From NCBI RefSeq assembly GCF_030813515.1, contig NZ_JAUSUK010000002.1:1736001-1800000 (forward strand): DNA of 64,000 bases, written 5' to 3'. A model generated the notes under the pieces. That model did no database searches. It was not told where the DNA came from and worked only from the letters and a program-made list of their open reading frames with translations. Below are positions 41,891 through 58,641 of the stretch, piece by piece. This stretch comes from Rhodopseudomonas julia (GTDB lineage Bacteria > Pseudomonadota > Alphaproteobacteria > Rhizobiales > Afifellaceae). Each line of letters opens with the position of its first letter. The stretch's first letter is position 1. The position numbers were made by a program, and so were the translations under genes.

Positions 41891-42135
41891 GACCGCACAT
41901 CCACGGTGTCGACGATGCCGACGACAGCCGCATCGACCGGGCTTGGTTTATCCAGCTTGACGCGAGCGGCACCGCCGGTGACGTAGAGAACGGTGTCGCT
42001 GCCGCCGGCGCCGACGAGGTCGATGGCGACGATGCGGGAGCCGTCCGAGAGTTCCAGGACGAGAAGCTTGTAGCCGACCAGCGCATCGTCCTTGCGGGTG
42101 GCGACGACAGTCCCGATTACCGTTGCAAGTTGCAT
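41887..42135 (-). CDS. pduN: BMC pentameric vertex protein
   Basis: 82 residues of the EutN/CcmL family (QLATVIGTVVATRKDDALVG, then GAGGSDTVLYVTGGAARV). Pentamers cap the twelve vertices of the polyhedral shell. Short intergenic gap after the flavoprotein, 4-base overlap into pduO. Confidence 0.92.
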   Translation of the reverse strand: MQLATVIGTVVATRKDDALVGYKLLVLELSDGSRIVAIDLVGAGGSDTVLYVTGGAARVKLDKPSPVDAAVVGIVDTVDVRS

Positions 42136-42148
42136 TTCAGTCGTCCTT

Positions 42149-42970: not shown

Positions 42971-42991
42971 CGCCCTCTCCCTTCAGCCTCC

Positions 42992-43774
42992 TCAGCGCGG
43001 AATGATGAGCGTGCACATCTGGCCGGTGCGGATGCCGGCCGCGTTCGCTTCGTCCGTGTCGACGTGCAGTTCGGTGCGCCAGCCCGCCTTCACCCGCACG
43101 AAGATGCCGTGCAGTGTGGTGGGCTTCGGGCCATCGACACGCAGATCGAGAAGGTCGCCGGCCTTCACGCGCAGCTCGCGGGCGACATCATCGCTGAGGT
43201 GAATGTGACGCCGTGCCTGGAAGGCACCACCGCCCTTGCCGCCCGGCAGGCGTACGGTGCCCCTCGGTCCAACGAGAGTGACCGGCTGCGTGCCTTCTTC
43301 GCTGCCTTCGGTGCGCACCGGCAGTTTCAGGCCGATATTGGTGGCATCCGTCTGCGCGAGTTCCACCTGCGAGAATGCTCTGGTCGGGCCGAGAACCCGA
43401 ACCTTTTCGATCGCCCGTTTCGGACCGACGACGATCAGCTGCTCTTTTGCGGCGAAATAGCCCTTCTGATAGAGCTCATTGTAGACCTGCAGGTCATAGC
43501 CTTCGCCGAAGAGCACCTTCACGTGTTCGTCGCAGAGATGGATGTGGCGCACGGAGACGCCGGTGTAGACCGGCAGTTCCAGATTGCCGTTGCGAATGAC
43601 CGGCTTCGTCGGGGTTTCGCTTTGGATAGCCTCAGGCTTGGGCGTCGCCGTCTCCGTCTTGGCCGCAGCCGGTGGTGCACTCGCCGTCGACTTCGCCGCG
43701 CCCGCTCCCGCTTGCGAAAGACGCCGGACCACTTCTTTGGTGACCCCTTCGATCGTTTCGGCGGTGATTTCCAT
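42992..43774 (-). CDS. pduL: phosphate propanoyltransferase
   Basis: 260 residues. N-terminal encapsulation helix (TIEGVTKEVVRRLSQAG), a Pro/Ala linker, then two PduL beta-barrels with the zinc-binding His motifs VRHIHLCDEHVKVLFGE and RRHIHLSDDVARELRV and a late TELHVDTDEANAAG. Converts propionyl-CoA plus phosphate to propionyl phosphate inside the BMC and releases CoA for PduP. A small hairpin (43791-43805) precedes its ribosome site. Confidence 0.92.
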   Translation of the reverse strand: MEITAETIEGVTKEVVRRLSQAGAGAAKSTASAPPAAAKTETATPKPEAIQSETPTKPVIRNGNLELPVYTGVSVRHIHLCDEHVKVLFGEGYDLQVYNELYQKGYFAAKEQLIVVGPKRAIEKVRVLGPTRAFSQVELAQTDATNIGLKLPVRTEGSEEGTQPVTLVGPRGTVRLPGGKGGGAFQARRHIHLSDDVARELRVKAGDLLDLRVDGPKPTTLHGIFVRVKAGWRTELHVDTDEANAAGIRTGQMCTLIIPR

Positions 43775-43853
43775 CGAGATACTCCTCAGTCGCGCCTTCG
43801 GCGCGGTCTTCTTCGTCCGTTCAAATCGTCGGCGAGGCGGCCTTCACCGACCG

Positions 43854-44546
43854 TCAGTATTTCCTTCTGGAGCGCCGTCCCTTGCGGGGCCGGCTGTTTG
43901 AGGCCGATTGCTCACCGCTGGAATTCGCTTCGTCCGTCTCGCCGTCGGAGGTGTCGTCACCCTCTTCATCACCCGCCTCGCCGGAGGCTTCATCGTCAGT
44001 TTCGGCCGCGGTCTCGACCGGAGCTTCCTCTTGCGGGCTGACTTCGGCTGCGGCAGACGTCTGGACCTCAGGGGCTTCTTCAGTGACCGGCGCGGTCACC
44101 TCCGAAGCCTTGGGTTGGTCGTCTTCGCCGTCGCTTTCGCCTTCGGCCGCATCCTCGGAGCCGCCGGTTTCAGCGCCCGCCTCGTCCGGTGCAGTTTCTG
44201 CGGCAGCAGGTTCTGCCGCGGATGTCTCAGAAGCGGCCTCGCTCGGCGCTTCCGACTTCGGCTTGCCGCCGGCCTGAAGGATCAGGCTTTCGAGCGTGTC
44301 GTGCGGACGCGGGATGATCAGTTGACCATCGATGCGGCCGACCTTCTCACCAGCCGCCGTTCCGGCGGCGACCGCCGCGCGGATCGCGCCGACGTCTCCG
44401 GCCAGCTTGATGGTGATACGTCCGCCGCCTTTTGCGGTTTCGGAGCCGAGCAGCACGACATTGGCGGATTTCACCGCCGCGTCCGCCGCCGCGATTGCGG
44501 TCGGAAGGCCAATGGCCTCGATCAATCCCAGAGCCTTCAGCGCCAT
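43854..44546 (-). CDS. BMC-H shell protein with long acidic tail and basic end (PduK-like position)
   Basis: 230 residues. Residues 1-88 form a canonical BMC-H domain (ALKALGLIEAIGLPTAIAAA, then ANVVLLGSETAKGGGRITIK). Residues 90-215 are a disordered Ala/Glu/Ser/Thr/Pro tail with no Cys, ending in SRPRKGRRSRRKY. Known PduK tails instead carry a Cys-rich Fe-S site, which is absent here. The acidic linker and Arg-rich end could tether lumen cargo or an RNA-like partner to the shell. Overlaps the pduH end by 10 bases. Confidence 0.82.
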   Translation of the reverse strand: MALKALGLIEAIGLPTAIAAADAAVKSANVVLLGSETAKGGGRITIKLAGDVGAIRAAVAAGTAAGEKVGRIDGQLIIPRPHDTLESLILQAGGKPKSEAPSEAASETSAAEPAAAETAPDEAGAETGGSEDAAEGESDGEDDQPKASEVTAPVTEEAPEVQTSAAAEVSPQEEAPVETAAETDDEASGEAGDEEGDDTSDGETDEANSSGEQSASNSRPRKGRRSRRKY

Positions 44547-45151
44547 TGTGTTCCTCGTTCTTTGATGATCGCCACGACGATCTTGACGATCTTGCGTATG
44601 TCGGCCTCGCTCAGAGCAAGCTCCGCAGAGGCCTCCCCGGCCGTCGGTCTTGCTGTCTCAGCCGCTTGTTGATTTGTGCTGTGCTGCCGCGCACTGCCCT
44701 CGGCGAGCTTCGTGCCTTGGGTCGGCGCGGAAGCGGCCTGTTGCGCTGCGGCGCGCCGCTCGGAGGCTGGCCGAACGTGGTCGTCAACATCCTCCACCTC
44801 GTCTTCGAAACGCAGCGGGAGGCGTGCCACCATGCGGGCGGCATTGGCACCGGCACGGCGACACACGGCCTCCGCCCGGTTTTCGTAAGGGATCGTCAGG
44901 ACTGGCTTGCGGGGCGGCATGTGCCGCTCGTGCAGAACGATCGCATCAGAGCCAATCGCAACACCGATATCGATCCGCGAACTGATCGCAGCAGCGTAAG
45001 CCGCATCGACGACGTCCCCGTCAGCGGCCTCGGCAAGTTTGGTCGGGACGCCCTCTTCCTCAGCGCCGATCAACACCCATTCGTAAAGGGACGGCTCTGC
45101 ACCGCGGACGACCGCGACATTGATGGTGGGACGTTCGGACTTCTCGGCCAT
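44537..45151 (-). CDS. pduH: diol dehydratase reactivase small subunit with added C-terminal helix
   Basis: 204 residues. Residues 1-115 match the reactivase small subunit (TINVAVVRGAEPSLYEWVLI, IDIGVAIGSDAIVLHERHMP). The usual protein is about 120-125 residues; here an Ala/Gln/Glu linker and a terminal amphipathic helix LSEADIRKIVKIVVAIIKER follow. That helix resembles encapsulation peptides of the same operon, so reactivase may be carried into the BMC by its own tag. Forms the ATP-dependent chaperone with PduG. Three bases separate it from pduG. Confidence 0.86.
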   Translation of the reverse strand: MAEKSERPTINVAVVRGAEPSLYEWVLIGAEEEGVPTKLAEAADGDVVDAAYAAAISSRIDIGVAIGSDAIVLHERHMPPRKPVLTIPYENRAEAVCRRAGANAARMVARLPLRFEDEVEDVDDHVRPASERRAAAQQAASAPTQGTKLAEGSARQHSTNQQAAETARPTAGEASAELALSEADIRKIVKIVVAIIKERGTQWR

Positions 45152-45154
45152 CGC

Positions 45155-46993
45155 TCAGACCGCTCCCTGACGCCGCGCATGGCTCAGGACGAGGCCGGTC
45201 GCCACGGCATTCACCGGGCCGAGGGCCCCGCGAATATTGGCGGTGCCGATCACCGTGCCGTAATGGGCGAGCTGATCGGTCAGCATCCGAGCGACTTCGA
45301 AGTCGAGCCCCGAACCGCCGACGACCGCGACGAACTGGATCTCGCGGATGTTGCCGGCCGGGGCGACCGCGGACAGAGCACGCATGGCGTTGCGCACGAA
45401 GACGCGGCGCTTGGCTTCGCGGCGCACCTCGCGAATGCGGTCCAGCGTGTGATGCGTCGGAATCGGTGAGAGCCCGTCCGGGGTGATCAAAGCGACGCGG
45501 CCAAACAGCTTCGGATCGAGCGGCTCTTCGAAGAAGCGCACCGTGTTGTCCTCGTGGCGGACGTGGAACAGACTTTCCACACGCACCAGCGGAAAACGCT
45601 TGATCTGCTCGGCGACGTCCGTCTCGTTGCCGCCCGGCAGATCGAGTTCACGCTGAATGAGGAGCGTGACCATGTCGCCCGCGCCGGCGAGATGCACCGA
45701 GCGCACTTCGCGGTCCTTTTCGAGGATCGCAGCGTCGGTCGAACCGGCGCCGAGATCGAGGATCGCCAGTGGCGTGTCGAGCCCCGGCGTGGTGAGTGTG
45801 CCGAGGATCGCCATATTGGCTTCGACACCGCCCAGCTGCACCTGGATGCCGAGCTCCTTGTGCAGACCTTCGGCGAGCTGCTCCATCAGTAGCTTGTCGG
45901 TGTTGACCATAGCCGCAAGACCGACGGCGTTCTCCATCGAGAATTCTTGGGCGAGGCCGCCCGAAACCCGCTGCGGCACGAGGCAATCGACCGCCAGCAC
46001 GTCGCGGATATGCACCTCCGACGCCGGCTTCTTCGTCATGTTGCTCATGGTCTGGCGCACACGCGCCACCATGCCGCCGACATTGGTGCCGGATTCACCC
46101 TCCACGTCCTTGAGCGGGAAGACCTGGGCGAGCGCATCCATGATTGCGTCCGCGCCGGAATCCATCGGGGCGTCGACCGTGCGGCGCTCGCCGACGAGCT
46201 TCAGCGAACCGGCAGGAATGTGCCGGGTCTGGACGTCGCCTGCGGGGGTGCGGATGACCACGGCCGAGCGCAGGCCGATGAGGGCCTTGGCGATCGGGAT
46301 GATCATCGTCGTTTCCTGCGGCGTCAGCTTGAACAGCGTCGCGATGCCATAGGGATTGCTGAGCTGCTGGATCGCCTGGCCATGATCGGCCACCTCGACG
46401 GCAGCGAGCATGCCGAGCGGCACCTGATCGATGAGCTTCACCTCATCGACGATCGGCAGTTTCTTGGGCAGGCGGTTGGCGATCAGAACGCCATCATCGC
46501 CCTGCACGATCGCAGCCGTCACATCGACGCCGCGCTCGAGCGCGGCTGCGAGCATCTGTGCGGCGCGCGTGAAGTCGTAAGTCTTCGGGACGACGGCGAT
46601 GACCGCCTCGTCCTTCGGGGCTGTCTCAAGCTCACTGATGTCGTGCGTTACGCCGACACCGATGCCGAGCCCACCCGGGGAATTCGGATTGTGACCGATC
46701 ATCGAGGATTCGGTGATGATCGTCTCGGTGATCGTTTCCATGGCGATATCGCCGATCACCGGGGTCGCTTCATTCAAGAGAACGAGATCAATGTCCCGCA
46801 GCGACAGCCCTGCCTGCTGCACAGCCGTATCGAGCGCCCGCACCACACCCGGGACATTTGCCAGAGTGCCCTTGATGCCCGTCGTCGGCATGCGGCTGGA
46901 GGCCAGAAAATTCGGCACCCCGCCATTCGCGCCAACTTCGGCCAGGGCAACTTCCGTGGTCGAGTTTCCGATATCGACGCCCGCGACCTTCAT
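45155..46993 (-). CDS. pduG: diol dehydratase reactivase large subunit
   Basis: 612 residues, the normal family size. Actin/Hsp70-like ATPase motifs MKVAGVDIGNSTTEVALAEV at the N terminus and ILDLGAGSTDAAILEKDREV later. Exchanges damaged cyano- or hydroxo-cobalamin for adenosylcobalamin on PduCDE. Start set by GGAAGAGAA before ATG 46993; an in-frame upstream extension has no family match. A 14-bp perfect hairpin lies between pduE and this gene. Confidence 0.93.
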   Translation of the reverse strand: MKVAGVDIGNSTTEVALAEVGANGGVPNFLASSRMPTTGIKGTLANVPGVVRALDTAVQQAGLSLRDIDLVLLNEATPVIGDIAMETITETIITESSMIGHNPNSPGGLGIGVGVTHDISELETAPKDEAVIAVVPKTYDFTRAAQMLAAALERGVDVTAAIVQGDDGVLIANRLPKKLPIVDEVKLIDQVPLGMLAAVEVADHGQAIQQLSNPYGIATLFKLTPQETTMIIPIAKALIGLRSAVVIRTPAGDVQTRHIPAGSLKLVGERRTVDAPMDSGADAIMDALAQVFPLKDVEGESGTNVGGMVARVRQTMSNMTKKPASEVHIRDVLAVDCLVPQRVSGGLAQEFSMENAVGLAAMVNTDKLLMEQLAEGLHKELGIQVQLGGVEANMAILGTLTTPGLDTPLAILDLGAGSTDAAILEKDREVRSVHLAGAGDMVTLLIQRELDLPGGNETDVAEQIKRFPLVRVESLFHVRHEDNTVRFFEEPLDPKLFGRVALITPDGLSPIPTHHTLDRIREVRREAKRRVFVRNAMRALSAVAPAGNIREIQFVAVVGGSGLDFEVARMLTDQLAHYGTVIGTANIRGALGPVNAVATGLVLSHARRQGAV

Positions 46994-47024
46994 TTCTCTT
47001 CCAATAGGTTTGCTTTGAGGAAGG

Positions 47025-47067
47025 TGCGAAACGGCGGGCCAATTGGGGGTACACCCGCCGTTTCGCA
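47025..47067 (-). terminator. 14-bp hairpin between pduE and pduG
   Basis: Perfect 14-bp stem TGCGAAACGGCGGG / CCCGCCGTTTCGCA with a 15-base loop, no U-tract. Lies in the only large gap of the pduC-to-pduH stretch and probably lowers reactivase mRNA relative to shell/dehydratase mRNA, or protects the upstream 3' end. Confidence 0.65.
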
Positions 47068-47108
47068 GAGAACCAAACTCCAAGGGGGAGCAACGTGCAG
47101 GAGTTTGG

Positions 47109-47624
47109 TCAGTCCTTGCGGAGGACGTCGCGACGTTCGTAAACGTCGGCAGCCTCACGAACGAAGCCGGCGCAAATCTTCGCGTCGAACTTGCTCTCCA
47201 ACTCGTCCGCGATCGCCAGCAATTCGGCTTTCGTGGAACGGTTCGGACGCAGTGCGTTGTACATCTGCAGGATCCGGTCGTCGGGAACCCGGGTCATCTC
47301 GGCAGCGCGCCGGAGGTTCGCCGCAAACTGCGGGCGACCGACGCTCTCACCGATCTGGGCCTGGTATTCCAAGGTCTGAGCCGTGATGCGGATGTCGTTC
47401 GCGCCGATCTTGCCGTTGAGCACATCCTCAAGCGTGATGTCCTCAAGCGACTTGCCGCCTGGCGTCTTGACCAGCTCGGGGCGATTCTTGGCGAGCGGAT
47501 AGTCCTTCGTGTGGTCGAGCTTTCCGCTTGTCGAGGCCTTGCTGGGCGCAGCGGCGGAACCGCCGTTGCCCAGCTCCGCGAGCACTTCGCGAACAATGGA
47601 GTTGATCAGGTCTTGCTGTGACAT
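47109..47624 (-). CDS. pduE: diol dehydratase small subunit
   Basis: 171 residues. N-terminal encapsulation helix (LINSIVREVLAELG), a short linker, then the small-subunit core (KNRPELVKTPGGKSLEDITL, LRRAAEMTRVPDDRILQMYN). Part of the (alpha-beta-gamma)2 adenosylcobalamin enzyme. 18 bases after pduD. Confidence 0.93.
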   Translation of the reverse strand: MSQQDLINSIVREVLAELGNGGSAAAPSKASTSGKLDHTKDYPLAKNRPELVKTPGGKSLEDITLEDVLNGKIGANDIRITAQTLEYQAQIGESVGRPQFAANLRRAAEMTRVPDDRILQMYNALRPNRSTKAELLAIADELESKFDAKICAGFVREAADVYERRDVLRKD

Positions 47625-47642
47625 TTGTTTCTCCCTGTCCGC

Positions 47643-48323
47643 TCAGCTGAACTTCACTTCCAGATCGACCGGCTTCGCATTGCGATCAACGAAGCTGGTT
47701 TCACGGATGTGGAGGACCGCTGCGATGGCCTGGTATTTCGGCCGGGCCATCTGGTCGTTCTTCTGCCGCACGGGATCGGGCGTCTCGCCCTTCGCGTAGC
47801 GGGCAGCGTTGCGGCCGATTGAGCGGTAGGTTTCAAGGTCGAGCACCGGCGCCTGCGGGAACAGCTCCAGGTTCTGGAGCGGGAACAGGTCTCGCTGGTG
47901 GATGACCGAGGTGCCCCGCGACTGGATGCCGATGGCGATGCCCGAACCGGCGAGCTTCGCACCGACATTGCCAGCGAAGGCGACATCGGAGGTGTGCTTG
48001 ACCCGAACGACGCGTCCCTTGCAGCCCTCTTCCTCGATGCCGGCGAGAATTTCGCGCAACACCTTGGCGTGGGGAATGCCAGTGATCGTCTGCTCCTTCA
48101 GCTTGTCGCCGAAGGCCGGAGCGAGCGCCACGACGACTTCGTTCGGCTCTGTGCCCTGCTTGGCAGGGCCGACCTCACGCAGCGTCATCTTAGCGGCAGA
48201 GTTGTCGACCGGAGCAAAGGCGGAAACCGGAGTGCTCTTTGCACCCTTGTCTTCCGCCAGCTGCATCTGGGCCAGGACTTCCCGAACCGCGTCGCGGACA
48301 GCTGCTTCTGTGATCTGTGCCAT
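47643..48323 (-). CDS. pduD: diol dehydratase medium subunit
   Basis: 226 residues. N-terminal encapsulation helix ([18 protein letters not shown]) as in Salmonella PduD, the main tag for the dehydratase. The core has [20 protein letters not shown] and [19 protein letters not shown], which form the cobalamin-facing beta subunit. Coupled to pduC 24 bases upstream. Confidence 0.94.
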
Positions 48324-48347
48324 TTCTGTCTATCTCCTGACCGCGGC

Positions 48348-50015
48348 TTAGAGATCTTCAGGCCGAATGGCCTGACGGATCGTCTGCAACTGTTTCCAGC
48401 GCTCGCCTTCGGCCCGATATCCAGTGCCAGGGCCCTGGTAGTCGTTCAGGTCATTGACGGCAGCGATCGGGTTGAAGTCCGTGTCGAAGATCGTCGAAGT
48501 GTGCAGATAGTCACCCGCCACGCGCTGCTTCTGGATGGACAGAACCGAGTTCGCCACATCCGCAAAGCCTTGCTTGGCAAGAGCCTTGATCACATCGAGA
48601 CCGGTGATGCCCCGCTTCAGGATGTCCTGGGCAGCCTTGGTGTCCCGCACCTTGTCGCGCGCCGGCATGTCGTCGCTCGAATAGGCGTAGGTTGCTGCTT
48701 CGACTTCCTCGTCGGTGATCGCCGGCAGACCGAGTTCCGTAAAGACTGCCTGCATGGCGCGGGCGGCCTTGTTGCGGACTTCGATGATCTTCTCTTCCGA
48801 ACTTGGAACGAGGCCAGCATCGACCTTGAGGTCGCGCTGAATGATCAGCCAATCGTCAATGTCGTCGATGTCGACATTGGAACCGGCGAACATGTTGTCC
48901 TTGTTCGGCGTGGCCGAGTAGCCAGAGGTGATGAAGTCGGTTCCCGGAAGGAACTGCATCAACAGGCGGGCCGTCCGACGCATGTCGGAATGCGAGAAGG
49001 TCTGGTCGTTGCCCGACGCGTTCTCAAGATCGAGGCACGCCGTGACGAGGTTCTCGCCGAGGACGGCACGGATACCACCCGGGACGCCGGCAGGAACGCC
49101 GATGCACGAGATGGAGCCGTTCTGCAGGCCCTGCACGCCGGCCGCCTTGGTCAGCATGATGCACTTGATCTCCAAGTACAGCATCGACTTGCCTTCGGCG
49201 TAACCCATCTGCACTTCCGAACCGGTACCGGAGGTGAAGCGCATCTTGATGCCGCGTGAGGCGTAGGCGGAAGCCAGGAAGCCCTTCGACCACGGCGTGT
49301 CGTCGCCGTCGATGAACACCCGCTCCGTGCCATAGACCGAGACGGTTTCCGCATAGGCGGTCAGACCGCGCATGCCGAGCTCGAGCTCGATCGATTCTTC
49401 CAGAGAGTCCTGCCAGAGGACACCCGGACGGCCGACCTGGCCACCGATCAGAAGCGCAAGCGCGTTGAACGGGCCATAGTTGAACACAGCGACGGTCGTC
49501 TCGATCTCGGCGAAGCCGTAGCAGGTCGCCTCAGCCGCGTCGGCCGCCATCAGGACGGGATTGTCCTGGGTGTTGGTCACGTGAGCCTGGTTCGCCGGGG
49601 TGCGGCGGGCACGCATCTTCTGCACGCCCATCATCATCTCGACGACGTTGAGCTCGTCCACAACCGCTGCGATCTTGGCAGGCGTGAGACCCGAGAAGAC
49701 GCGAACGACCTTCTCGCGCGGCACGTTGATGTCGACGATCATCCGGGCGATGTCGACTGCCGACATCGCCATCATCTCTTCGGCAACCTTGGTGTTGATG
49801 CCGTACTTGGCGATGAAGATCTCGTTGAAGTCGAACTCTTCATGCGTGCGACCGTCCATTTCGACGATCACACCGTCCTTGATTTTGATGCTCGGCTTCG
49901 GGTCGTTCGGGCTGCCCATGGCGATCATGCCGACTTCGGGCCATTCCGTCACGTATCCGTCTTGGTTGACGGGCCGCTTCTCCAGAGCCTCAAATCTTTT
50001 GTGCCTTTTGGCCAT
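48348..50015 (-). CDS. pduC: B12-dependent propanediol dehydratase large subunit
   Basis: 555 residues, matching PduC length. TIM-barrel alpha subunit; seen are KRFEALEKRPVNQDGYVTEW at the N terminus, ISCIGVPAGVPGGIRAVLGE and YSATPNKDNMFAGSNVDIDD. Converts 1,2-propanediol (also glycerol or ethylene glycol) to the aldehyde with adenosylcobalamin and K+. Start at MAKRHKRF, 31 bases after pduB. This is diol/glycerol dehydratase, not a glycyl-radical diol enzyme. Confidence 0.95.
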   Translation of the reverse strand: MAKRHKRFEALEKRPVNQDGYVTEWPEVGMIAMGSPNDPKPSIKIKDGVIVEMDGRTHEEFDFNEIFIAKYGINTKVAEEMMAMSAVDIARMIVDINVPREKVVRVFSGLTPAKIAAVVDELNVVEMMMGVQKMRARRTPANQAHVTNTQDNPVLMAADAAEATCYGFAEIETTVAVFNYGPFNALALLIGGQVGRPGVLWQDSLEESIELELGMRGLTAYAETVSVYGTERVFIDGDDTPWSKGFLASAYASRGIKMRFTSGTGSEVQMGYAEGKSMLYLEIKCIMLTKAAGVQGLQNGSISCIGVPAGVPGGIRAVLGENLVTACLDLENASGNDQTFSHSDMRRTARLLMQFLPGTDFITSGYSATPNKDNMFAGSNVDIDDIDDWLIIQRDLKVDAGLVPSSEEKIIEVRNKAARAMQAVFTELGLPAITDEEVEAATYAYSSDDMPARDKVRDTKAAQDILKRGITGLDVIKALAKQGFADVANSVLSIQKQRVAGDYLHTSTIFDTDFNPIAAVNDLNDYQGPGTGYRAEGERWKQLQTIRQAIRPEDL

Positions 50016-50046
50016 ACTATTATTCCTCGCTAAGGCTGGCTCTCGA

Positions 50047-50844
50047 TCAGATGTACGGGGTTCCGCCCGTCTTCGGCTCCGAGCCAAGCGTTCCGAGGAG
50101 CTTCACGCCGATCTCGCGCGCCGTGACGACCGCCTGGCGGACCGCACCGGCATCACCGCTGAAGAAGCCGATGACCTCGTTGGAGAAGGACGTGCCTTTG
50201 GCCGGCGAAGCAACGCCGAGAAGATCAACATCCGCGGACTTCACCGCAGCGTCGACCATTTCGACCCCGATACCGGCGGGAGCACCGACGCACAGACCGA
50301 AGGCGCGTCCGATCGGGGCGTTGAACGCCTTGTTGCAGGCGTAGCTGGCGCGAGCCGTATACTGCAGTTCGATATGGCCAGCGTCGTTTGCGTAGACGTC
50401 GCCGAAGGTGCGCTCGAGATCCTTCAGAGCGACCTCGATACCGCGGCGCGCATCGGACACCTCTTCGGCACCCAGAAGAATCAACGAACCATGACCCGCA
50501 CCACCCTTGGTGTCGCGAGCAAGCTCAATCGAGATGACCTCGGTATTGGTCGCCTTCACGGCCTCGTCGACGGCAAGGATGTGCGGGCCAGCACCGGTCC
50601 GCGAGCTCAAGATGCCGATCGAGCGGTACTTCGGGTCGAAGCCGAGCATTTCGTGCAGCTTCGGATCGAGATTGGCGATCACGATGCCGATCGAATCGCC
50701 GACCGCAGTCCCGACGAATTCCGTCAAGCCGGGATGCTTGTTGGCGGGCTGCGACGCAGCCGGGGCAGCCGGAGCAGCGCCGGCGTTGCCGCCGATCTTC
50801 TGCATCACCTGCTGCACCATCTGGTCGAGGAGTTTATCGTCCAT
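50047..50844 (-). CDS. pduB: BMC trimeric shell protein
   Basis: 265 residues: an N-terminal helix DKLLDQMVQQVMQKIGG that in Salmonella PduB links shell and lumen, an Ala/Pro linker, then two BMC domains (BMC-T, for example GIVIANLDPKLHEMLGFDPK and GRAFGLCVGAPAGIGVEMVD). Probable pore for diol or cofactors. Confidence 0.93.
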   Translation of the reverse strand: MDDKLLDQMVQQVMQKIGGNAGAAPAAPAASQPANKHPGLTEFVGTAVGDSIGIVIANLDPKLHEMLGFDPKYRSIGILSSRTGAGPHILAVDEAVKATNTEVISIELARDTKGGAGHGSLILLGAEEVSDARRGIEVALKDLERTFGDVYANDAGHIELQYTARASYACNKAFNAPIGRAFGLCVGAPAGIGVEMVDAAVKSADVDLLGVASPAKGTSFSNEVIGFFSGDAGAVRQAVVTAREIGVKLLGTLGSEPKTGGTPYI

Positions 50845-50878
50845 GGCGTGTCATCCTTTAATGACTAGTGCGTACAGA

Positions 50879-51178
50879 TCAGCTCTGGCTGCCCGGCAGT
50901 TTCGGCAGGAGCTTTTCCGTATCCATGTGCGGCCGCGGAATGACGTGGACCGAAACCACTTCACCGACGCGCTGGGCCGCAGCGGCACCCGCATCAGTCG
51001 CAGCCTTCACGGCGCCGACATCGCCACGGACCATGACGGTCACGAGACCGGAACCGATCTTCTCCGTGCCAATCAGCGTGACGTTGGCCGCTTTGACCAT
51101 CGCGTCGGCCGCCTCGACCATCGCGACAAGACCCTTCGTCTCAAGCAGGCCAAGGGCTTCACCCGGTGTATTTGCCAT
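50879..51178 (-). CDS. pduA: BMC hexameric shell protein
   Basis: 99 residues, canonical BMC-H ([40 protein letters not shown]). Main facet tile and likely propanediol pore. The only plain BMC-H gene here; no pduJ duplicate is present. Confidence 0.94.
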
Positions 51179-51184
51179 GTTGCT

Positions 51185-51676
51185 TCACTCCTCTGTGTTA
51201 GAAGCGCTGTGGTGAACCAGTCCCAGGGCAAGAAGACGTTGGCGCAATTCCTCAATGCCGGTGCCTTCAACCGCAGAGACGGGGTAGATGTCCCCACGCA
51301 CCCCGGCATCGCGGAGCAGCCGTGAGGCGTGAGCGATGTCGGCGTCGGGACGATCAATCTTTGTGACCAGGCCGATGACGGTCTGGGAAAACATCAGGAA
51401 GAACCCAGGCGGAAAGCTGGAGCGCGCTCGCGTGGCATCCTGGATCACCAGGAGCACTGACGCGTCGTTCGCGGTCGTGATCAGATGGTTCCGGAACATC
51501 CCCATCTCGGAGTATTCCCCGGGGGTGTCGATGCCCCAGCCGGCGTAGTCGACCATCTGGGTCTTGCGTGCCGCCTCGCCCGCGCCTTCAAGAGCACGCA
51601 GCAGGGTCGTCTTGCCGAAGCCGACGGAGCCGAGCACCATAAAGCGCTGCTCGGAGGGAGTTTCCGTTGTAGCCAT
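51185..51676 (-). CDS. pduV: BMC-associated small GTPase, PduV/EutP-type
   Basis: 163 residues. P-loop GSVGFGKTTLLRALEG, DTPGEY switch, and late TKIDRPDADIAHASRLLRDA (NKxD-like TKID). PduV links shells to cytoskeletal filaments in Salmonella. Start at MATTETPS with GGAG upstream, between pduU and pduA. Confidence 0.87.
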   Translation of the reverse strand: MATTETPSEQRFMVLGSVGFGKTTLLRALEGAGEAARKTQMVDYAGWGIDTPGEYSEMGMFRNHLITTANDASVLLVIQDATRARSSFPPGFFLMFSQTVIGLVTKIDRPDADIAHASRLLRDAGVRGDIYPVSAVEGTGIEELRQRLLALGLVHHSASNTEE

Positions 51677-51693
51677 TGCTACTCCGCCCCGCC

Positions 51694-52056
51694 TCATGTC
51701 CGTGTGACCTTGGCCGGGAAGAAGGCCAGGACACTTTGGAGCCCACGATTGGCCGCCTCGACGGCGACCTCGACGCTATCCAGGCTGCCGCACACCACCA
51801 GCGTGCCACTGAAGCGGTCCAGGAAACCGATGGTGACATCAGCCGCCTTCATCGCCAGATCGCCCGCTATGATCGTGCCCTCGCCCGGCGTCACAGTTAG
51901 GATCCCGACCGCTTCCGCGTCCTCAAGGCCGACCCTTTGACACAAAGCGGCGTCCGGATTCGCGATAATATGAGCAATCGTTACCTGCCGGCCAGGCACG
52001 TATTCTTGAATAATACGTGTCGATACTTCTTCCTGGTCGAACTGCGTCCGCGACAT
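51694..52056 (-). CDS. pduU: circularly permuted BMC-H shell protein
   Basis: 120 residues. Order of BMC elements is permuted: RIIQEYVPGRQVTIAHIIAN first, then GILTVTPGEGTIIAGDLAMK and TLVVCGSLDSVEVAVEAANR, the PduU/EutS pattern with a plugged pore. First gene of the pdu operon. An 8-7-8 inverted repeat lies within its 5' part. Confidence 0.92.
   Translation of the reverse strand: MSRTQFDQEEVSTRIIQEYVPGRQVTIAHIIANPDAALCQRVGLEDAEAVGILTVTPGEGTIIAGDLAMKAADVTIGFLDRFSGTLVVCGSLDSVEVAVEAANRGLQSVLAFFPAKVTRT
51997..52019. promoter_or_regulatory. inverted repeat inside the 5' end of pduU
   Basis: CACGTATT-CTTGAAT-AATACGTG, perfect 8-bp arms, codons 13-20 of pduU. It could be an operator for the PDU regulator, an mRNA hairpin, or chance. 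Function unproven. Confidence 0.35.
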
Positions 52057-52472
52057 GCTTATTTGTTCTTCCTTTTGATACAGTCGCGGTTTTAGACGGC
52101 GGGGGTCACACCTTCAATGCACGGACCGGCGGAGCCACTCCACAAATCGGCTTTTGTTCGGCCCGAGAGTGTACGAACTCAGCCGAAAAGTGCACAACCA
52201 TAGCGGCTAATTGCATTGCCGCATCCTCGCCTGCCACATAAGAAAGTACCGGCTAAAAAAAGCCGGTTCTGCCGTGCGCACAAGCGTGTACGGCTGACAA
52301 TTGTCTTGCGCGTGAGGTTGCCGATTACGCCAGCAATGCCCGACGATATCTTCTGTCGCGATAATAGACCCCAGAGATATCTGCCGGTTTTGCTGAAACC
52401 CGGACAATGCCCGGTTCAACGCGGGGTCCTTGACCGCCTCGCGGACAAGTGCGCCCATCTGGAGCATCTACT
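52057..52472. other. divergent pdu / alcohol-dehydrogenase control region
   Basis: 416 bases with promoters for both BMC operons. No gene. Holds the A-rich palindrome 52248-52267 and GTGTAC-type short repeats (around 52168 and 52284) that could be recognised by the AraC-type response regulator. I saw no sigma-54 or clear sigma-70 promoter. This is the likeliest place for the locus switch. Confidence 0.55.
52248..52267. promoter_or_regulatory. palindrome with A6 centre in the pdu control region
   Basis: ACCGGCT-AAAAAA-AGCCGGT, perfect 7-bp arms. It is either a DNA site for the response regulator or an RNA hairpin in one leader. Confidence 0.45.
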
Positions 52473-53597
52473 GTGAAAGCTTTGGTCTATTACGGCTCTG
52501 GAAAGATCTCCTGGGAAGACAAACCTCTCCCGAAGATCGAGCACCCGGCGGACGTGATCGTCCAGATCAGCAAGACGACGCTTTGCGGTACCGATCTTGC
52601 GATTCTGCGTGGTGGCGTGCCCGATGTTCAGCCGGGCCGCACGATCGGCCATGAGGCCACCGGTTACGTCACCGAGATCGGCCCCGCCGTGCAGGACCTC
52701 AAGGTCAGCGATCACGTCATCATTCCCTGCAACACGTCCTGCGGACGCTGCGAACCCTGCCGGAAGGGGCTTCACTCCAGTTGCGAGCGCGGAGGCTGGC
52801 TGCTCGGTCACACGATCGACGGCGTACAGGCCGAATACGCGCGCGTCCCGCTTGCCGATTCGAGCCTCTTTCGCATTCCCGACGGCGTCGACGAGGAAGC
52901 GGCCTTGATGCTTGCCGACATTCTGCCGACGGGCCTCGAGGTCGGCGTCAAGCGTGCGGAGGTCGGCCTGGGCGACGCCCTTGTGGTGATCGGCGCCGGG
53001 CCTGTCGGGCTGGCGACCATCCTCGCCGCCGAATTCTACTCGCCAGCCCGGATCATCGCGATCGATCTGGACGACAATCGCCTGGCGAAAGCGCGCGAAA
53101 TCGGCGCCACAGACACCATCAACAACAAGGACGGCAAGGCGCGCGAGAAGGTGATGACACTCACCGAAGGGCGCGGCGCGGACGCCGTCATCGAGGTGAT
53201 CGGCAATCCCGCCACCTTCCAGCTGGCGCAGGAGATCCTCGCTACGGGCGGCCGCATGGCCAATATCGGCATCTTCCACAAGAGCACCGAACTGCACAAC
53301 GAAACGCTCTGGACGCGCAACATCACCCTGCGGATGGGCGTGGTCGACAACAGCACGGTGCCGGTTCTTTTGAAGATGGTTCAGGCAGGAAGGCTCGATC
53401 CGAGCAGCCTGGTCTCGCACCACTTCCACATCAACGAGATCCTCGAAGCCTACGAGATCTTCAAGAATGCGGCCCAGGAGCAGGCGATCAAGATCGTTCT
53501 CTCCACCGATGCGGCCAAGAAGGCTGGCAGCAACAAAGTCTCCAACGACAACGAGTTCATTCGCCAGATCGTAGAGCGCGTTCTGGCCAGCCTCTGA
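52473..53597 (+). CDS. zinc alcohol dehydrogenase with C-terminal encapsulation-like helix
   Basis: 374 residues, medium-chain ADH. Catalytic zinc Cys in TTLCGTDLAIL, structural-zinc cysteines CNTSCGRCEPCRKGLHSSC, Rossmann VVIGAGPVGLATILAAEF. After the catalytic core a linker (AAKKAGSNKVSN) and the helix NEFIRQIVERVLASL follow, whose spacing matches the operon's encapsulation peptides. Likely the propanol-forming NADH recycler in place of the iron ADH PduQ, imported through its C-terminus. GTG 52473 with GGAG upstream; an earlier GTG is possible. Confidence 0.88.
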   Translation: MKALVYYGSGKISWEDKPLPKIEHPADVIVQISKTTLCGTDLAILRGGVPDVQPGRTIGHEATGYVTEIGPAVQDLKVSDHVIIPCNTSCGRCEPCRKGLHSSCERGGWLLGHTIDGVQAEYARVPLADSSLFRIPDGVDEEAALMLADILPTGLEVGVKRAEVGLGDALVVIGAGPVGLATILAAEFYSPARIIAIDLDDNRLAKAREIGATDTINNKDGKAREKVMTLTEGRGADAVIEVIGNPATFQLAQEILATGGRMANIGIFHKSTELHNETLWTRNITLRMGVVDNSTVPVLLKMVQAGRLDPSSLVSHHFHINEILEAYEIFKNAAQEQAIKIVLSTDAAKKAGSNKVSNDNEFIRQIVERVLASL

Positions 53598-53674
53598 CAT
53601 CCGTCGCCGGCGGCCGCGATGCGGCACGGCTCAACGAAAACCGGCGCCCCACGCCTCGCAGAGGTAGTGCGGCC

Positions 53675-54904
53675 ATGCTTGCGGAGTGTTCACCGGTGAT
53701 TTTGGTTATCAACTGCGGCAGCTCGACGCTGAAATATCAGCTCTACACGACCGATCTCAAAATCGTCGCCGCCAAAGGCCTCGTCAGCAGGATCGGCGAG
53801 GAAGGCTCGCGACTGGAATATACCGCTCACGGATCGAAACATGTCCGCGTCTTGCCGGTGCCGGACCATCACACAGCCTTCACCGCCATGATCGACATCC
53901 TGCTCGACCCCGAGGCCGGCGTCATCGACGATATCAGCGAGGTCACGGCGGTCGGCCACCGCGCCGTCCACGGCGCCGACACCTTCGTCAAATCGTCGGT
54001 GATCAATGACGAGGTCATCGCCAAGCTTGAGGAATGCGTCCCGCTCGCGCCGCTTCACAATCCGCCGAATCTCGTCGGCATCGTGGAGGCGCGCAAATTG
54101 CTGCCGGACGTCCCGCAAGTGGTCGTCTTCGACACCGCGTTCCACCAGACCATGCCCGAATATGCGCATGTCTATGCCCTGCCCTACGAGCTTTACAGCG
54201 AGCACCGGATTCGTCGCTACGGTTTCCACGGAACGTCCTGCCGCTTCGTCAATCAGAGGGCGGCGGACATGCTCGGCAGACCGGTGGACGAGCTCAAGAT
54301 GGTCATCTGCCATCTCGGCAACGGGGTCACGATCGACGCGATCGAGAACGGACGCTCGATCGATACGAGCATCGGCTTTGCCACGTTTTCGGGCGTGATG
54401 ATGGGCACGCGCTCCGGCGACGTCGATCCGGGCCTGATTTTCTATCTCAACAAGCAACTCGGCATGAGTCTCGGCGACATCGAGGCCATGCTTTACAAAC
54501 GGAGTGGCCTCCTCGGCGTCTCGGGCATCAGCAATGATATGCGCGAAGTGGAGGAACGCGCCGAGGGCGGATGCGAACGTTGCGAACTCGCACTCGAGAT
54601 GTTCGCCTACATGACGCGGAAATATATCGGATCTTATGCGGCAGCCTTGGGCGGGCTCGATGCGCTGGTCTTCACCGCGGGGATCGGCGAGAACAGCCCG
54701 TCGATGCGGGCACGCATCTGCGAGAAGCTCGACTTCCTCGGCATTGCCATTGATGGTGACGCCAACGAGGCGCCTGGGGAAGATGGCCGCATCAGCACCC
54801 GCGATTCCCGGACGGCGGCGATGGTCGTGCCGACCGACGAGGAAAAGATGATCGCGATCGACACCCTCCGCCTGACCGAAAAGGCGAGAGCAGAAGCTGC
54901 GTGA
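53675..54904 (+). CDS. pduW: propionate/acetate kinase
   Basis: 409 residues of the acetokinase family. Seen: VINCGSSTLKYQLY, GHRAVHGADTFVKSSVI, DTAFHQTMPEYAHVYALPYE, RRYGFHGTSCRFV and CHLGNGVTIDAI. Makes ATP from propionyl phosphate (or acetyl phosphate). No encapsulation helix, so cytosolic. 77 bases after the ADH. Its BMC context favours propionate; the substrate range is not proven. Confidence 0.9.
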   Translation: MLAECSPVILVINCGSSTLKYQLYTTDLKIVAAKGLVSRIGEEGSRLEYTAHGSKHVRVLPVPDHHTAFTAMIDILLDPEAGVIDDISEVTAVGHRAVHGADTFVKSSVINDEVIAKLEECVPLAPLHNPPNLVGIVEARKLLPDVPQVVVFDTAFHQTMPEYAHVYALPYELYSEHRIRRYGFHGTSCRFVNQRAADMLGRPVDELKMVICHLGNGVTIDAIENGRSIDTSIGFATFSGVMMGTRSGDVDPGLIFYLNKQLGMSLGDIEAMLYKRSGLLGVSGISNDMREVEERAEGGCERCELALEMFAYMTRKYIGSYAAALGGLDALVFTAGIGENSPSMRARICEKLDFLGIAIDGDANEAPGEDGRISTRDSRTAAMVVPTDEEKMIAIDTLRLTEKARAEAA

Positions 54905-54914
54905 GGCAGGAACC

Positions 54915-55745
54915 ATGAACAACCACGCCGACGACATCCTCGCCCGTGCGGTCAGCGTCTTCAACAAGACGCCAGCGCAACAGGCTTACAAGGGCCGCGT
55001 CCATGTCGGGGTTGATCTCGGCACGGCCTACACCGTTCTCGTCGTCCTCGACGAGGACGGGCAGCCGCTCGCCGGGCGCTATCAGTTCGCGCAAATCGTG
55101 CGTGACGGTCTCGTGGTGGATTTCATCGGCGCGATTAAGATCCTGTCGCGCATGAAGGCAGAGGTGGAGGCGGATCTCGGCTTTCAGCTTGAGAGCGCGG
55201 CGACCTCCTACCCGCCCGGCGTTGCCCCGGCGGAGGTGAAGGCGACGCAAAACGTCGTCATCGGCGCGGGGCTCGAATGCGAGCACTTCGTCGATGAGCC
55301 GACAGCGGCCAATGCCCTCCTGCAGATCAAGGATGGGGCGGTGGTCGACGTCGGCGGCGGCACGACGGGCGTTGCGATCTTCAAGGATGGCGAAGTCGTC
55401 TATACCGCCGACGAGGCGACCGGCGGGACCCAGTTCACTTTGGTACTTTCAGGTGCCCTCGGCGTCTCCTTCGAGGAGGCGGAGGATATCAAGAAAGATC
55501 CGAAACGAGCCCGATCACTTTATCCGCTGGTCAGACCGGTGATGCAGAAGGTCGGCAGCATCGTGGCCCGCCATATCGCACCATACGACGTCAAGACCAT
55601 TCACCTCGTTGGAGGCACAAGCGGCATGCCCGGCATGGCCGAGATCGTAGGCGAGATGACGGGCGTGCCGACAAAGTTGCCGTCCCACCCGATGTTTGTG
55701 ACGCCGATCGGCATCGCCATGCATGATCGCAAAGACCGTGCATGA
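54915..55745 (+). CDS. eutJ: EutJ-type Hsp70/actin-like chaperone
   Basis: 276 residues. ATPase motifs VHVGVDLGTAYTVLVVLDED, DVGGGTTGVAIFKDGE and HLVGGTSGMPGMAEIVGEMT. EutJ proteins sit in BMC operons and may help shell or enzyme assembly; their activity is not settled. It is normally in ethanolamine loci, so its place after a propionate kinase in a pdu locus is notable. 10 bases after pduW. Confidence 0.88.
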   Translation: MNNHADDILARAVSVFNKTPAQQAYKGRVHVGVDLGTAYTVLVVLDEDGQPLAGRYQFAQIVRDGLVVDFIGAIKILSRMKAEVEADLGFQLESAATSYPPGVAPAEVKATQNVVIGAGLECEHFVDEPTAANALLQIKDGAVVDVGGGTTGVAIFKDGEVVYTADEATGGTQFTLVLSGALGVSFEEAEDIKKDPKRARSLYPLVRPVMQKVGSIVARHIAPYDVKTIHLVGGTSGMPGMAEIVGEMTGVPTKLPSHPMFVTPIGIAMHDRKDRA

Positions 55746-55794: not shown

Positions 55795-56661
55795 TCACTC
55801 CGAGCTGGCCTCCGGCTCCTTCTCGCATCTGCGGAACTGCGCCGGTGTCATGCCTGTCTCACGCTGGAACAGGCGATAGAAATTGGTGACGTTGGCATAG
55901 CCGACCTGCTCGGCGACCGCCTCATTGGTCGTGTCGGTCGTCAAAAGCAGGTCTTTGGCGGCTTCGATGCGCTTTTCGGTGAGAAACTGCTTGTAGCTGA
56001 CGCCGACGCATTCGCGAAAACGGTGCGCAAGATGTGACGGGCTGAGATGCGCGACGTTGGCGACAGCCGCGAGCGACATGTTTTCGTCGGCATAGTTCTC
56101 GGAGATGAAGGCGACCGCCCGCTTGACCGGATCTCTCTCCGGCGCACAGGGCGTTGCGGCCGGCGTGACGTCACGAGCGATCTCCGCGTCATTAGCCGAC
56201 GACGCACTCAATTCCGTGCAAATCTCACCGTGGAGTTTGCGCAGCAATTCGCCGAGCTTCGTCGGACGGATCGGCTTCAAGAGATAATCGAGCGCGCCGA
56301 TCTTGAGGGCGCGCTGCACATAGGCAAACTCATCATAAGCCGTGAGAAAGATGAGCCGCGTGCGGGGCAGCTCGGCCTTGATGATCGCCGCCGCCTCCAA
56401 CCCGTCCACGCCGGGCATCTTGATATCGATCAGAATGAGCTCGGGCCGCTCCCGCCGGGCGACCTCGACCGCTTCGGAGCCGTTCTTGGCTTCCCAGACA
56501 TTGGCGAAGTCGAGAGCCTCTGCGGCAACGACGCGACTGATCGTCGAGCGAATGATCGGTGTGTCGTCGGCCACCAAAAGGCCAGGTCGAACCGAGGACT
56601 CCTGCTGAAACGCCCCCTGAAACATGGAAGCAAAACGCTCAGTACGGGCGAGCTCAAGCAT
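55795..56661 (-). CDS. AraC-type response regulator of the pdu system
   Basis: 288 residues. Receiver domain (about 20-140; LLVADDTPIIRSTISRVV, phospho-Asp in ILIDIKMPG, Lys in YLLKPI) followed by a C-terminal AraC HTH (SLAAVANVAHLSPSHLAHRF, TTNEAVAEQVGYANVTNFYR). Partner of the upstream PocR kinase and likely activator of both pdu operons. I start at ATG 56661, overlapping the kinase stop by 8 bases; upstream in-frame ATGs lie within the kinase gene. Confidence 0.88.
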   Translation of the reverse strand: MLELARTERFASMFQGAFQQESSVRPGLLVADDTPIIRSTISRVVAAEALDFANVWEAKNGSEAVEVARRERPELILIDIKMPGVDGLEAAAIIKAELPRTRLIFLTAYDEFAYVQRALKIGALDYLLKPIRPTKLGELLRKLHGEICTELSASSANDAEIARDVTPAATPCAPERDPVKRAVAFISENYADENMSLAAVANVAHLSPSHLAHRFRECVGVSYKQFLTEKRIEAAKDLLLTTDTTNEAVAEQVGYANVTNFYRLFQRETGMTPAQFRRCEKEPEASSE

Positions 56662-57904
56662 TTTCGAGCTGCGCATAGTCGCCGAGTGGCCAGGAAAGCT
56701 CAATTCGGGTTCCCTCATTCAGTCTGCTCGTCACTTTGAGATCGAAGTCGTTGCCGTACTCGCTGTCGAGCCGGGTAATGACGCTCTGCAGTCCCAGAGC
56801 CGCCCGGCTCCGTTCCGCCTGCTGCAGGACACAACGATCGTTGTTGAGCGCGGCGACCTGAGCCTCGCTCATACCCGCGCCGTTGTCATAGACCTCGATC
56901 AAACCGCGATCATCGACCTTGCGAGCCGAAACGCGCACGCGCACCGGCCGTGAGAGCGCTTCGACCCCATGCACGATCGCGTTCTCGGCAAGCGGCTGCA
57001 GAACCATGCAGGGGACCGGCCAGTTGCGCAGGCTTTCGTCGAGATCGACTTCAATGCTCAGATGGTCGCCGAAGCGAAGCTGATGGAGGCGCAAGCAGCG
57101 CTCGATCATGTCGAATTCTTCGCTGAGCGGCACCAGCGTGGCGAGATTGCGCAGACTGTAGCGGAGGATGTCGCTCAGCATATAGGCGACTTCCTCGGTC
57201 TTCACCGCCCTCTCCTCGAAAGCCGTGTAGCCGATGAGCGTCAAGGAGTTGAACAGGAAATGCGGATTGACCCGCGCCTGCAAGGCCCGCAGCTGAGCAT
57301 CCTGCAGCGCCTTTTCGGTGGCGGCCTTGGCTTTCACCTCCTTGAGGAGGCGCGCCTGGATCAAGTTCGTCTTGCCAATCTCGATGATGTGGCTCGCCGC
57401 CAGCATCAGCATCTCAACAGCGGAATCGAGACGGTCACGATCGGCCGCCGGCATGGCGTAGACCGCTTCTTCGAGCTCCGCCGGAGCAATGCCAAGCGAA
57501 TGGTTTCGGTCGAGCACGTTCCGAATGGTGCGCTCGCGCTCATCTTCGAGCATCACCTGGCCGCACAAAAGGCAGCCGAGATATTCATCTTCGATGATGA
57601 TCGGCGCAGCGACATCGACGAGCCCGGCATGACAGACATAGGTCGCCGGCCGGCCAGACCGATAGGCGGCGAGCCCCCCGCAAGCGTCGCAGGCATGGCA
57701 GCGCCGCAACCCTTCGGTCGTGGAGCGCATCAAACGACACACGGGCTGGAAATTGCTCGCTTTTGTGACGGGCACGCCGTCGCGATCAACTGTCACCGCG
57801 GCCATATCCATGGCCTTGGCGAAAGTGTCCTGAATCCGCTGCAACGTCGGGATGTCGACGAAGTCCTGGATCCGCCACTTATGAGTTGGGTAATGCTCTT
57901 CCAT
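56654..57904 (-). CDS. PocR-domain sensor histidine kinase of the pdu system
   Basis: 416 residues, no membrane span, so cytosolic. PocR domain (residues 10-180: WRIQDFVDIPTLQRIQDTFA, CRLMRSTTEGLRRCHACDAC, ATYVCHAGLVDVAAPIII), which binds 1,2-propanediol-like ligands in PocR, then a LytS/NatK-type kinase core (LQARVNPHFLFNSLTLIGY with the phospho-His) and ATPase loop (EVYDNGAGMSEAQVA). Senses propanediol and phosphorylates the downstream response regulator. A cobalamin riboswitch lies in its leader. GGAG is 11 bases before the ATG, spacing a little long. Confidence 0.88.
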   Translation of the reverse strand: MEEHYPTHKWRIQDFVDIPTLQRIQDTFAKAMDMAAVTVDRDGVPVTKASNFQPVCRLMRSTTEGLRRCHACDACGGLAAYRSGRPATYVCHAGLVDVAAPIIIEDEYLGCLLCGQVMLEDERERTIRNVLDRNHSLGIAPAELEEAVYAMPAADRDRLDSAVEMLMLAASHIIEIGKTNLIQARLLKEVKAKAATEKALQDAQLRALQARVNPHFLFNSLTLIGYTAFEERAVKTEEVAYMLSDILRYSLRNLATLVPLSEEFDMIERCLRLHQLRFGDHLSIEVDLDESLRNWPVPCMVLQPLAENAIVHGVEALSRPVRVRVSARKVDDRGLIEVYDNGAGMSEAQVAALNNDRCVLQQAERSRAALGLQSVITRLDSEYGNDFDLKVTSRLNEGTRIELSWPLGDYAQLENA

Positions 57905-58034
57905 CAGGATGACCGCTCCGCCCAACGCCGAAATATGACAAGCAAGCGCACGCGCTGCCTGCCGTGACTTTCGTCGCTGGATGCAGACCCCGACATCCCT
58001 CGTTATGCATCGACGGCCCACACAGCCCGATGCA

Positions 58035-58225
58035 CATCACCGGCAGGTCTCCTGGCTCGCGGCACCAAGCAAAGGCTACCTTCCCAGCGCTCGCGCGCCA
58101 GTGGCACTCCCAGCCCTGCTCTCCGCTCACAGTTGCGGGGGCAGCTACGGTTTCGGCCCTTCTTGGGGAGCCTCACCGTATTCCCTTTTCATCCTCACGC
58201 TCGCGCGCTCGGAAACCGGTAACGG
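58035..58225 (-). ncRNA. cobalamin riboswitch in the leader of the PocR kinase gene
   Basis: Sense orientation toward the kinase. Seen on the minus strand: the core GGGAATACGGTGAGGCTCCC, GCTGCCCCCGCAACTGTGAG, the B12 box AGCCAGGAGACCTGCC (58057-58042), and P1 arms ACCGG (58220-58216) / CCGGT (58043-58039). A hairpin TGCATCG...CGATGCA at 58034-58006, directly after the B12 box, is the probable expression platform. Binds adenosylcobalamin, the cofactor of PduCDE. Usually such elements shut off the gene when B12 is present. Confidence 0.93.
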
Positions 58226-58641
58226 GCTTTTACTGGCGCTAACCACGGCTTATGTCAAGTCGGTCTCGCCGTGGGCTGCTTCGTTACCCACTTGCAACAG
58301 GAGGAAATTCTATCTTTGGTTTATTTATAACGCCCATAGGTTGCTTCCTGCCATAAAAATGCACCTGGAAGCACCAATTTCTGCAATATTTACATCGGTA
58401 TTCATAAATAATACTTCGATGTATGACGATTTTTACAGGCATCCCCAGCTGAAGCCAGCCATAATGCCGCAGGCTGTAGAGCCCGACACCCTCGACGCGG
58501 GGCACCAGGCATATCGCTCGTTGCAGGTGAGCATATCTATCGGGGCACGATCTCGACAAGAAGAGCCCGGCCTCAGCCGCTCCCTTCGGGCCGCCCCTTC
58601 GAGCATAAGGGCGGCCTATGCCGTAAAGCTCTCGGCCCGAG
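58226..58641. other. region between the riboswitch and the ugpC-type gene, with an AT-rich island
   Basis: No gene supported. 58310-58440 is clearly AT-rich in a GC-rich window, with an interrupted inverted ACATCG...CGATGT and TATAA-like tracts. 58589-58616 is a GGCCGCCC/GGGCGGCC hairpin likely ending the ugpC-type operon. The island may contain additional promoters or binding sites for the kinase operon. Confidence 0.5.
58230..58258 (-). promoter_or_regulatory. candidate promoter of the riboswitch-kinase transcript
   Basis: TTGACA (58258-58253), 17-base spacer, CAGTAA (58235-58230) as a weak -10. The predicted start near 58223 coincides with the first pairing base of the riboswitch, which supports the call. 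Confidence 0.5.

Follow-up and report, generated by a model that had tools for sequence, protein, structure and literature searches.

Cobalamin riboswitches and B12-dependent pathways

In the available parts of eight papers, cobalamin riboswitches are described as OFF switches, or mostly so (PMC9600662, PMC9943018, PMC3766115, PMC11477304, PMC7007895, PMC3543383, PMC5821096, PMC11575231). The same papers also cover the antisense pocR riboswitch of Listeria, with orthologues in other Listeria and in Vagococcus, and the trans-acting case of EutX. As far as these parts go, the published OFF switches mostly sit on B12 supply genes and isozymes, and pathways activated by B12 are described as being reached via detours, through an antisense RNA at pocR in Listeria or through titration by the EutX RNA. 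In the ppe2 leader of Mycobacterium tuberculosis, the accessible sections of the source describe a uORF relay with an AUGA overlap and a translation start located in the L13 hairpin (PMC11260477). Neither a sense cobalamin riboswitch placed before a PocR-type sensor nor a natural cis-acting ON cobalamin riboswitch is described in the available parts of the literature surveyed, which is mostly open access and leaves subscription papers largely outside, absence being therefore unproven. This agrees with the preliminary description of the present locus, which knew of no described case of the arrangement.

The locus considered here was analysed in a window of 64,000 nucleotides from Rhodopseudomonas julia, this term standing for the whole stretch of DNA. 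It carries a cobalamin riboswitch in front of a PocR-domain sensor kinase, beside the genes of a pdu cluster. As in Listeria monocytogenes, where the antisense RNA is named AspocR, a B12 riboswitch is tied to a PocR regulator of propanediol use, and the goal would be the same if the switch were ON, but here the element is in sense orientation, 5' of a PocR-domain kinase and on the minus strand like it, and a terminator was not found. In Enterococcus and Listeria, EutX (Rli55) likewise makes the two-component system of a B12-dependent pathway subject to B12. EutX, however, titrates in trans EutV, which carries an ANTAR RNA-binding domain, whereas the present riboswitch lies in the leader of the kinase and the regulator has a DNA-binding domain. 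The enteric pocR-cbi arrangement likewise has a pocR-type gene and a cobalamin riboswitch on one strand; there, as in Salmonella and in the locus L075 described below, the riboswitch stands behind pocR and faces a cbiA-like gene, whereas here it stands in front of the PocR-domain gene. With the ppe2 leader, finally, the locus shares an L13 hairpin overlapping the start of a short ORF and a stop-start overlap with the target gene, but its leader ORF shows neither a well-placed Shine-Dalgarno (SD) sequence nor coding constraint.

A sense riboswitch in the leader of a sensor kinase would thus be a third solution. If it were an ON switch, it would be a natural positive B12 riboswitch built from ordinary P13 parts, and the propanediol sensor would be made only under conditions in which the diol dehydratase can receive its cofactor. 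The locus is a small system in which to examine how a riboswitch can reverse its sign.

The pdu locus and its sensor kinase

The sensor kinase (56654..57904, minus strand) displays PocR (PF10114), His_kinase and HATPase_c domains in Pfam. Its end is overlapped by the gene of a response regulator (55795..56718, minus strand, read from its first ATG), whose Pfam matches are a receiver and an AraC-type HTH_18/HTH_AraC domain, with no ANTAR family among them. This pair adjoins the pdu cluster (39461..55745, no strand assigned), which encodes an aldehyde dehydrogenase, a PduO-type adenosyltransferase, a phosphate propanoyltransferase, BMC shell proteins, PduB, three dehydratase subunits, a reactivase, an alcohol dehydrogenase, an acetate kinase and an FtsA/HSP70-like protein, presumably EutJ. 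A GTG at 58021, given in the list of open reading frames, was considered as the kinase start and set aside in favour of the likelier ATG at 57904. Indeed, the extension shows no coding constraint, the last 30 codons of its frame including 2 synonymous against 5 nonsynonymous variable codons, and alignments with homologues begin at residue 10 or 11 of the protein as read from the ATG.

The kinase occurs at 97-100% identity in three of the five Afifella genomes, its best named relative being that of Afifella marina (98% identity), which places the host in this genus; the two genomes without it are also without the diol dehydratase. In all three kinase-bearing genomes (the window species, A. marina and G001), the riboswitch precedes the kinase. 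As 17.4 kb around the locus are 91% identical to A. marina, conservation of the leader is by itself unremarkable, and the three near-identical species count as one observation.

The cobalamin aptamer

The Rfam covariance model of the cobalamin riboswitch, RF00174, matches the minus strand from 58235 to 58025 over its full length (model positions 1-189 of 189), with 122.1 bits and an E value of 3.8e-30 for a gathering score of 31.5 bits, and this is the sole match at the gathering threshold within the window. At the same place, the two other kinase-bearing Afifella species reach 123.7 and 125 bits. The preliminary description had recognised a canonical cobalamin riboswitch in sense orientation before the PocR-domain kinase of the pdu locus, and both statements hold, the riboswitch being 5' of the kinase with both on the minus strand; only the limits proposed for it (58006-58225) have to be changed, being offset by 10 to 19 bases from those of Rfam. 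As a whole, the element is very probably a cis-acting sense riboswitch for the kinase.

The B12 box AGCCAGGAGACCTGCC occupies 58042..58057 on the minus strand, according to the sequence and the Rfam alignment, and P1, read from the sequence, joins 58223-58216 to 58043-58036. The core of L5, CCCCG (58136..58140, minus strand), is complementary to CGGGG in L13 (57992-57988), and the two may form a kissing loop; the complementarity scan used CCCCCGC, a string present at the window locus, as a stand-in for L5. The aptamer, the B12 box and the position of the -35 box are shared with the other RF00174 leaders of Afifella, which precede genes for B12 uptake, cobalt transport and cob functions, and the L13 complement to L5 is shared with most of them, whereas the target here encodes a sensor kinase and adjoins the genes of a B12-dependent pathway. 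The closest Afifella aptamers outside the kinase loci stand before cobalt-transport-like genes, with 79-82% identity over aligned bases.

Hairpins between the aptamer and the kinase

A hairpin of 13 pairs (58004..58036, minus strand) adjoins P1. All 13 pairs are kept in the three species, with 100% of cells paired, and the changes it carries (four one-sided, one two-sided) all preserve pairing, the structure having been predicted from the same sequences. A 10-bp hairpin after the B12 box had been put forward in the preliminary description as the candidate expression platform; the hairpin is there, but the role of platform belongs more probably to P13, which lies downstream and resembles the platforms of sibling riboswitches. 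Indeed, the hairpin was rejected both as a terminator and as a platform, the terminator scan giving no intrinsic terminator-like site in 57850-58650 and a better L13 being found downstream, and it is probably a spacer between P1 and P13.

The P13 hairpin, GGAUG-UCGGGGUCUG-CAUCC (57979..57998, minus strand, with the L13 core at 57992-57988), is identical in the three species, and its loop is similar to the P13 loops UCGGGGUGUG of btuB-like sibling riboswitches. Judged from its sequence, P13 is the likely expression platform, and it is fairly probable that the riboswitch acts through it on translation. In unconstrained folds the probability of P13 is near 0. The kinase ATG lies 74 bases past P13. 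None of the three kinase leaders has a start triplet within 25 bases after P13, in contrast to 23 of the 25 sibling leaders counted (L002 dropped as misplaced, L053 left out), a weak distinction since chance often gives such a triplet. The kinase ribosome site (57906..57921, minus strand) includes GCGGA and CAUCCU, which can pair in minimum folds with the loop and the 5' arm of P13.

Sign of the switch

This complementarity suggests a way in which B12 could favour the synthesis of the kinase. With AdoCbl bound, L5 would kiss L13 and P13 would be locked; without it, the 5' arm and the loop of P13 would mask the kinase ribosome site by pairing with it. As P13 and the masking pairing use the same bases, B12 would release the ribosome site, giving a translational ON switch by which the sensor kinase would be made only in the presence of the cofactor of the diol dehydratase. 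Such a sign would suit the B12 requirement of the pathway.

For tails ending about 28 bases beyond the start, P13 bases mask the kinase ribosome site in the ligand-free minimum fold of all three species. The P13 segments GGGAUG and UCUGC pair, whole or nearly, with CAUCCU (CAUCUU in G001) and GCGGA (GCAGG in the relatives), and these minimum folds exclude P13. For the window alone, the fold of 57998-57896 has a z score of -2.7, with 1 of 200 shuffles as good, and that of 57998-57880 a z score of -2.35, with 6 of 200. Nine variable pairs stay paired among the species and a tenth fails in one of 162 cells; row shuffling gives no covariation signal (182/500), three such close species being uninformative in this respect.

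How much energy it takes to open the ribosome site (-15 to +3) was then compared between leaders with P13 free and with P13 locked, for tails of varied end points. Locking P13 lowers this cost by 7.7, 5.9 and 4.4 kcal/mol in the three kinase leaders for tails ending at +9, and by 6.2, 5.0 and 4.4 kcal/mol at +15. Sibling leaders behave differently, 15 of the 19 going in the opposite direction at +9 and again at +15, as would be expected of OFF switches, with lowest values of -2.0 and -3.0, so that in short tails locking P13 is predicted to act on the ribosome site with opposite sign in the two groups; these 19 leaders come from a small number of gene groups and are taken to be OFF switches because of the genes they precede. 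In linker shuffling, which covered the window species and A. marina and left out G001, the observed value is reached at +12 by 0/150 shuffles in the window and 1/150 in A. marina; shuffles as low number 17/150 and 25/150, respectively, at +24, and 3/150 and 6/150 at +36.

These values depend on the length of the transcript and on the definition of the site. Tails of +42 to +48 give a difference of the other sign (+1.3 to +2.8), which has shrunk to +0.3 to +1.1 at +75; at these lengths kinase codons compete for the P13 arm. Defining the site as -12 to +6 weakens the effect, which in two of the three species is close to zero between +18 and +30, and an initial measure with tails to +60 gave -1.7 to +1.4 according to the site window. 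In the ensemble at +30, the pairing of P13 with the ribosome site carries about half of the weight in the two relatives; by +45 almost nothing of it remains. When the whole aptamer is left free to fold, the difference at +9 is -5.2 in the window species, -1.7 in A. marina and 0.0 in G001, the last two falling inside the range of the siblings, of which the lowest is -1.8 and 13 of 19 are positive; at +12, it is -3.9, -0.4 and +0.2. Exposure of the ribosome site in the ligand-bound state is thus predicted in nascent-length tails, not in long transcripts, and, with a free aptamer, in the window species only. Besides, the raw complementarity between P13 and the ribosome site is ordinary for GC-rich DNA, being equalled or exceeded by 19, 21 and 52% of random 24-mers and by 5, 6 and 13% of shuffled sites.

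Because the folding evidence is limited in tail length, site window, ensemble weight, behaviour of the free aptamer and ordinary complementarity, the structure calculations lean only weakly to ON, and this sign is proposed tentatively, at somewhat less than an even chance. The complete scheme, a natural cis-acting ON riboswitch in which the P13 arm and the L13 loop mask the ribosome site without ligand and AdoCbl locks P13, is a model to be held with slightly more reserve still.

An ordinary OFF switch serving as a feedback valve is a serious competitor that we also place below an even chance and just after the ON reading. Free AdoCbl would lower kinase translation and limit pdu once the cofactor is plentiful, either directly or through loss of leader translation followed by Rho-dependent ending, and the pdu cluster does include PduO, the adenosyltransferase that makes AdoCbl. 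The OFF sign is that of the published cobalamin riboswitches, at least for the most part and in the sections available, and nearly all other Afifella riboswitches face, by eye, genes for the uptake of B12 or cobalt, for B12 synthesis or for isozyme-like proteins, L053 being an exception. As expected for such a valve, the ribosome site becomes slightly harder to open on locking P13 when the tail ends at +42 to +48, and at +48 shuffles are as high in 4/100 cases for A. marina and 15/100 for the window. However, the nascent-length tails give the opposite sign, the start triplet that follows P13 in most siblings is lacking, no terminator was found in the scanned region and the sensor would decrease exactly when the cofactor of its pathway becomes available.

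The leader also includes an ORF of 30 codons (57904..57996, minus strand), which starts inside P13 and whose stop overlaps the kinase start (TGATG). It is open in the three species, with the overlap kept in all of them, and it recalls the relay of the ppe2 leader (PMC11260477), in which case B12 would hide the start of the short ORF in P13, and translation of this ORF would feed the kinase start. No coding constraint is seen, however: of its variable codons 3 are synonymous and 4 nonsynonymous, where the kinase frame has 100 and 13. Its SD-like sequence, GAGG, stands 1 base from the ATG, which is too close for normal initiation. Translation of the leader ORF is therefore not supported by the sequence, and a relay of this kind is unlikely.

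Transcription of the leader

A TTGACA motif, identical in the three species, is the probable -35 box (58253..58258, minus strand), followed after 17 bases by a poor -10 candidate, CAGTAA (58235-58230). Among the 30 Afifella riboswitches, 22, including that of the window, have TTGAC at -21 to -24 of the Rfam start, two have it at -51/-52 and six have none within 80 bases. As TTGACA stands at the spacing common to these 22 riboswitches, co-transcription of the riboswitch and the kinase is likely. The mRNA would then be expected to start near 58223, with P1 at its extreme 5' end. An extension of P1 (GCCCG/CGGGC) was discarded, its 5' half falling downstream of the -10 candidate but ahead of the expected start and being probably untranscribed.

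It is improbable, to a greater degree than the relay, that a promoter lies downstream of the aptamer or that the aptamer has decayed, either of which would leave an element without control of the kinase. The strict promoter scan found no consensus sigma-70 promoter upstream of the riboswitch, as these possibilities would have it, but the aptamer keeps 122-125 bits in three species and TTGACA is located where most siblings carry TTGAC. Moreover, from the TTGACA box to the kinase start the three species align with one single-base indel, located within the aptamer, whereas much of the spacer further upstream is strongly diverged, with longer indels, and far less conserved than the aptamer. Action in trans, which the preliminary description had left as an option, shares with EutX/Rli55 the theme of B12-dependent catabolism under a two-component system, but a small RNA titrating the response regulator is the least probable of all these readings, as this regulator has a DNA-binding HTH_18 and no RNA-binding ANTAR domain, and no terminator able to release such an RNA was found in 57850-58650.

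Further upstream of the riboswitch promoter, an inverted repeat, TACATCG-N19-CGATGTA (window 58391-58423), has its arms kept in the three species and is a possible operator. Comparison of the block upstream of the riboswitch with the divergent pdu promoter for regulator motifs gave no shared 8-mer.

Occurrence of the arrangement in other genomes

At E 1e-30, the kinase is matched in 15 of 397 genomes of the order, among them the three Afifella and three others matching the kinase half only, and in one of 385 genomes of the class, which is the own genome. RF00174 is absent within 1500 bases on either side of the nine other full-length kinase loci (L015-L023). The PocR domain was detected in 40 of 398 genomes of the phylum with 57 matches, of which 30 were made into loci, one being the own locus. 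A B12-box pattern, itself incomplete, was found among them at the own locus only, and the Rfam scan of the other 29 (some on contigs ending near the gene) gave a single RF00174, in L075, behind pocR and facing a cbiA-like gene (by eye). This locus has pduF-like, pocR, riboswitch and cbiA-like elements in a row, together with a match to the STnc230 sRNA.

The diol dehydratase is present in 31 of 397 genomes of the order. Its loci were scanned with Rfam in 26 of the 28 non-Afifella genomes (G507 and G430 being left out as fragmented), over at most 20 kb around the gene, or 35 kb in G647, some contigs ending sooner. One RF00174 was obtained, in G647, whose kinase is 64% identical to that of the window; it faces a TonB-receptor-like gene (by eye) beside pdu genes, and not the kinase. 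This riboswitch (L086:4059-3852) lies just behind the last gene of a pduQ/EutJ-like pair, and the genes in front of it are TonB-receptor and B12-uptake-like (by eye).

A search of genome contigs with one query sequence returned one locus. In the PLSDB plasmids, two of 336 records match more than 80% of the kinase length, both from Rahnella and with 34% identity, and RF00174 is absent from L084, the one of these two loci that was scanned. Thus, the same arrangement was not found at any other scanned PocR or dehydratase locus, and within this sample a riboswitch before the kinase is confined to Afifella.

Other cobalamin leaders of Afifella

The remaining B12 leaders of Afifella show some features of their own. 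The cbtB-like leaders (L007, L046, L047, L052, L038) have a strong P13, with GGAGG or GGTGG in L13 and no 5-bp Watson-Crick match to the stand-in L5 string, and their kissing loop may differ. In G003, one cobalamin riboswitch match (L053, contig 36) has diverged and its B12 box is altered; it precedes a Rieske oxygenase-like gene (by eye). Two leaders of the same genome (L050 and L051) agree, by eye, in the 3' end of the riboswitch and in the start of a metE-like gene, reflecting a duplication or an assembly copy. By eye, the cobQ riboswitch leaders L006 and L049 contain short ORFs whose ends lie at the cobQ start or close to it, and leader ORFs may be common in the B12 leaders of Afifella.
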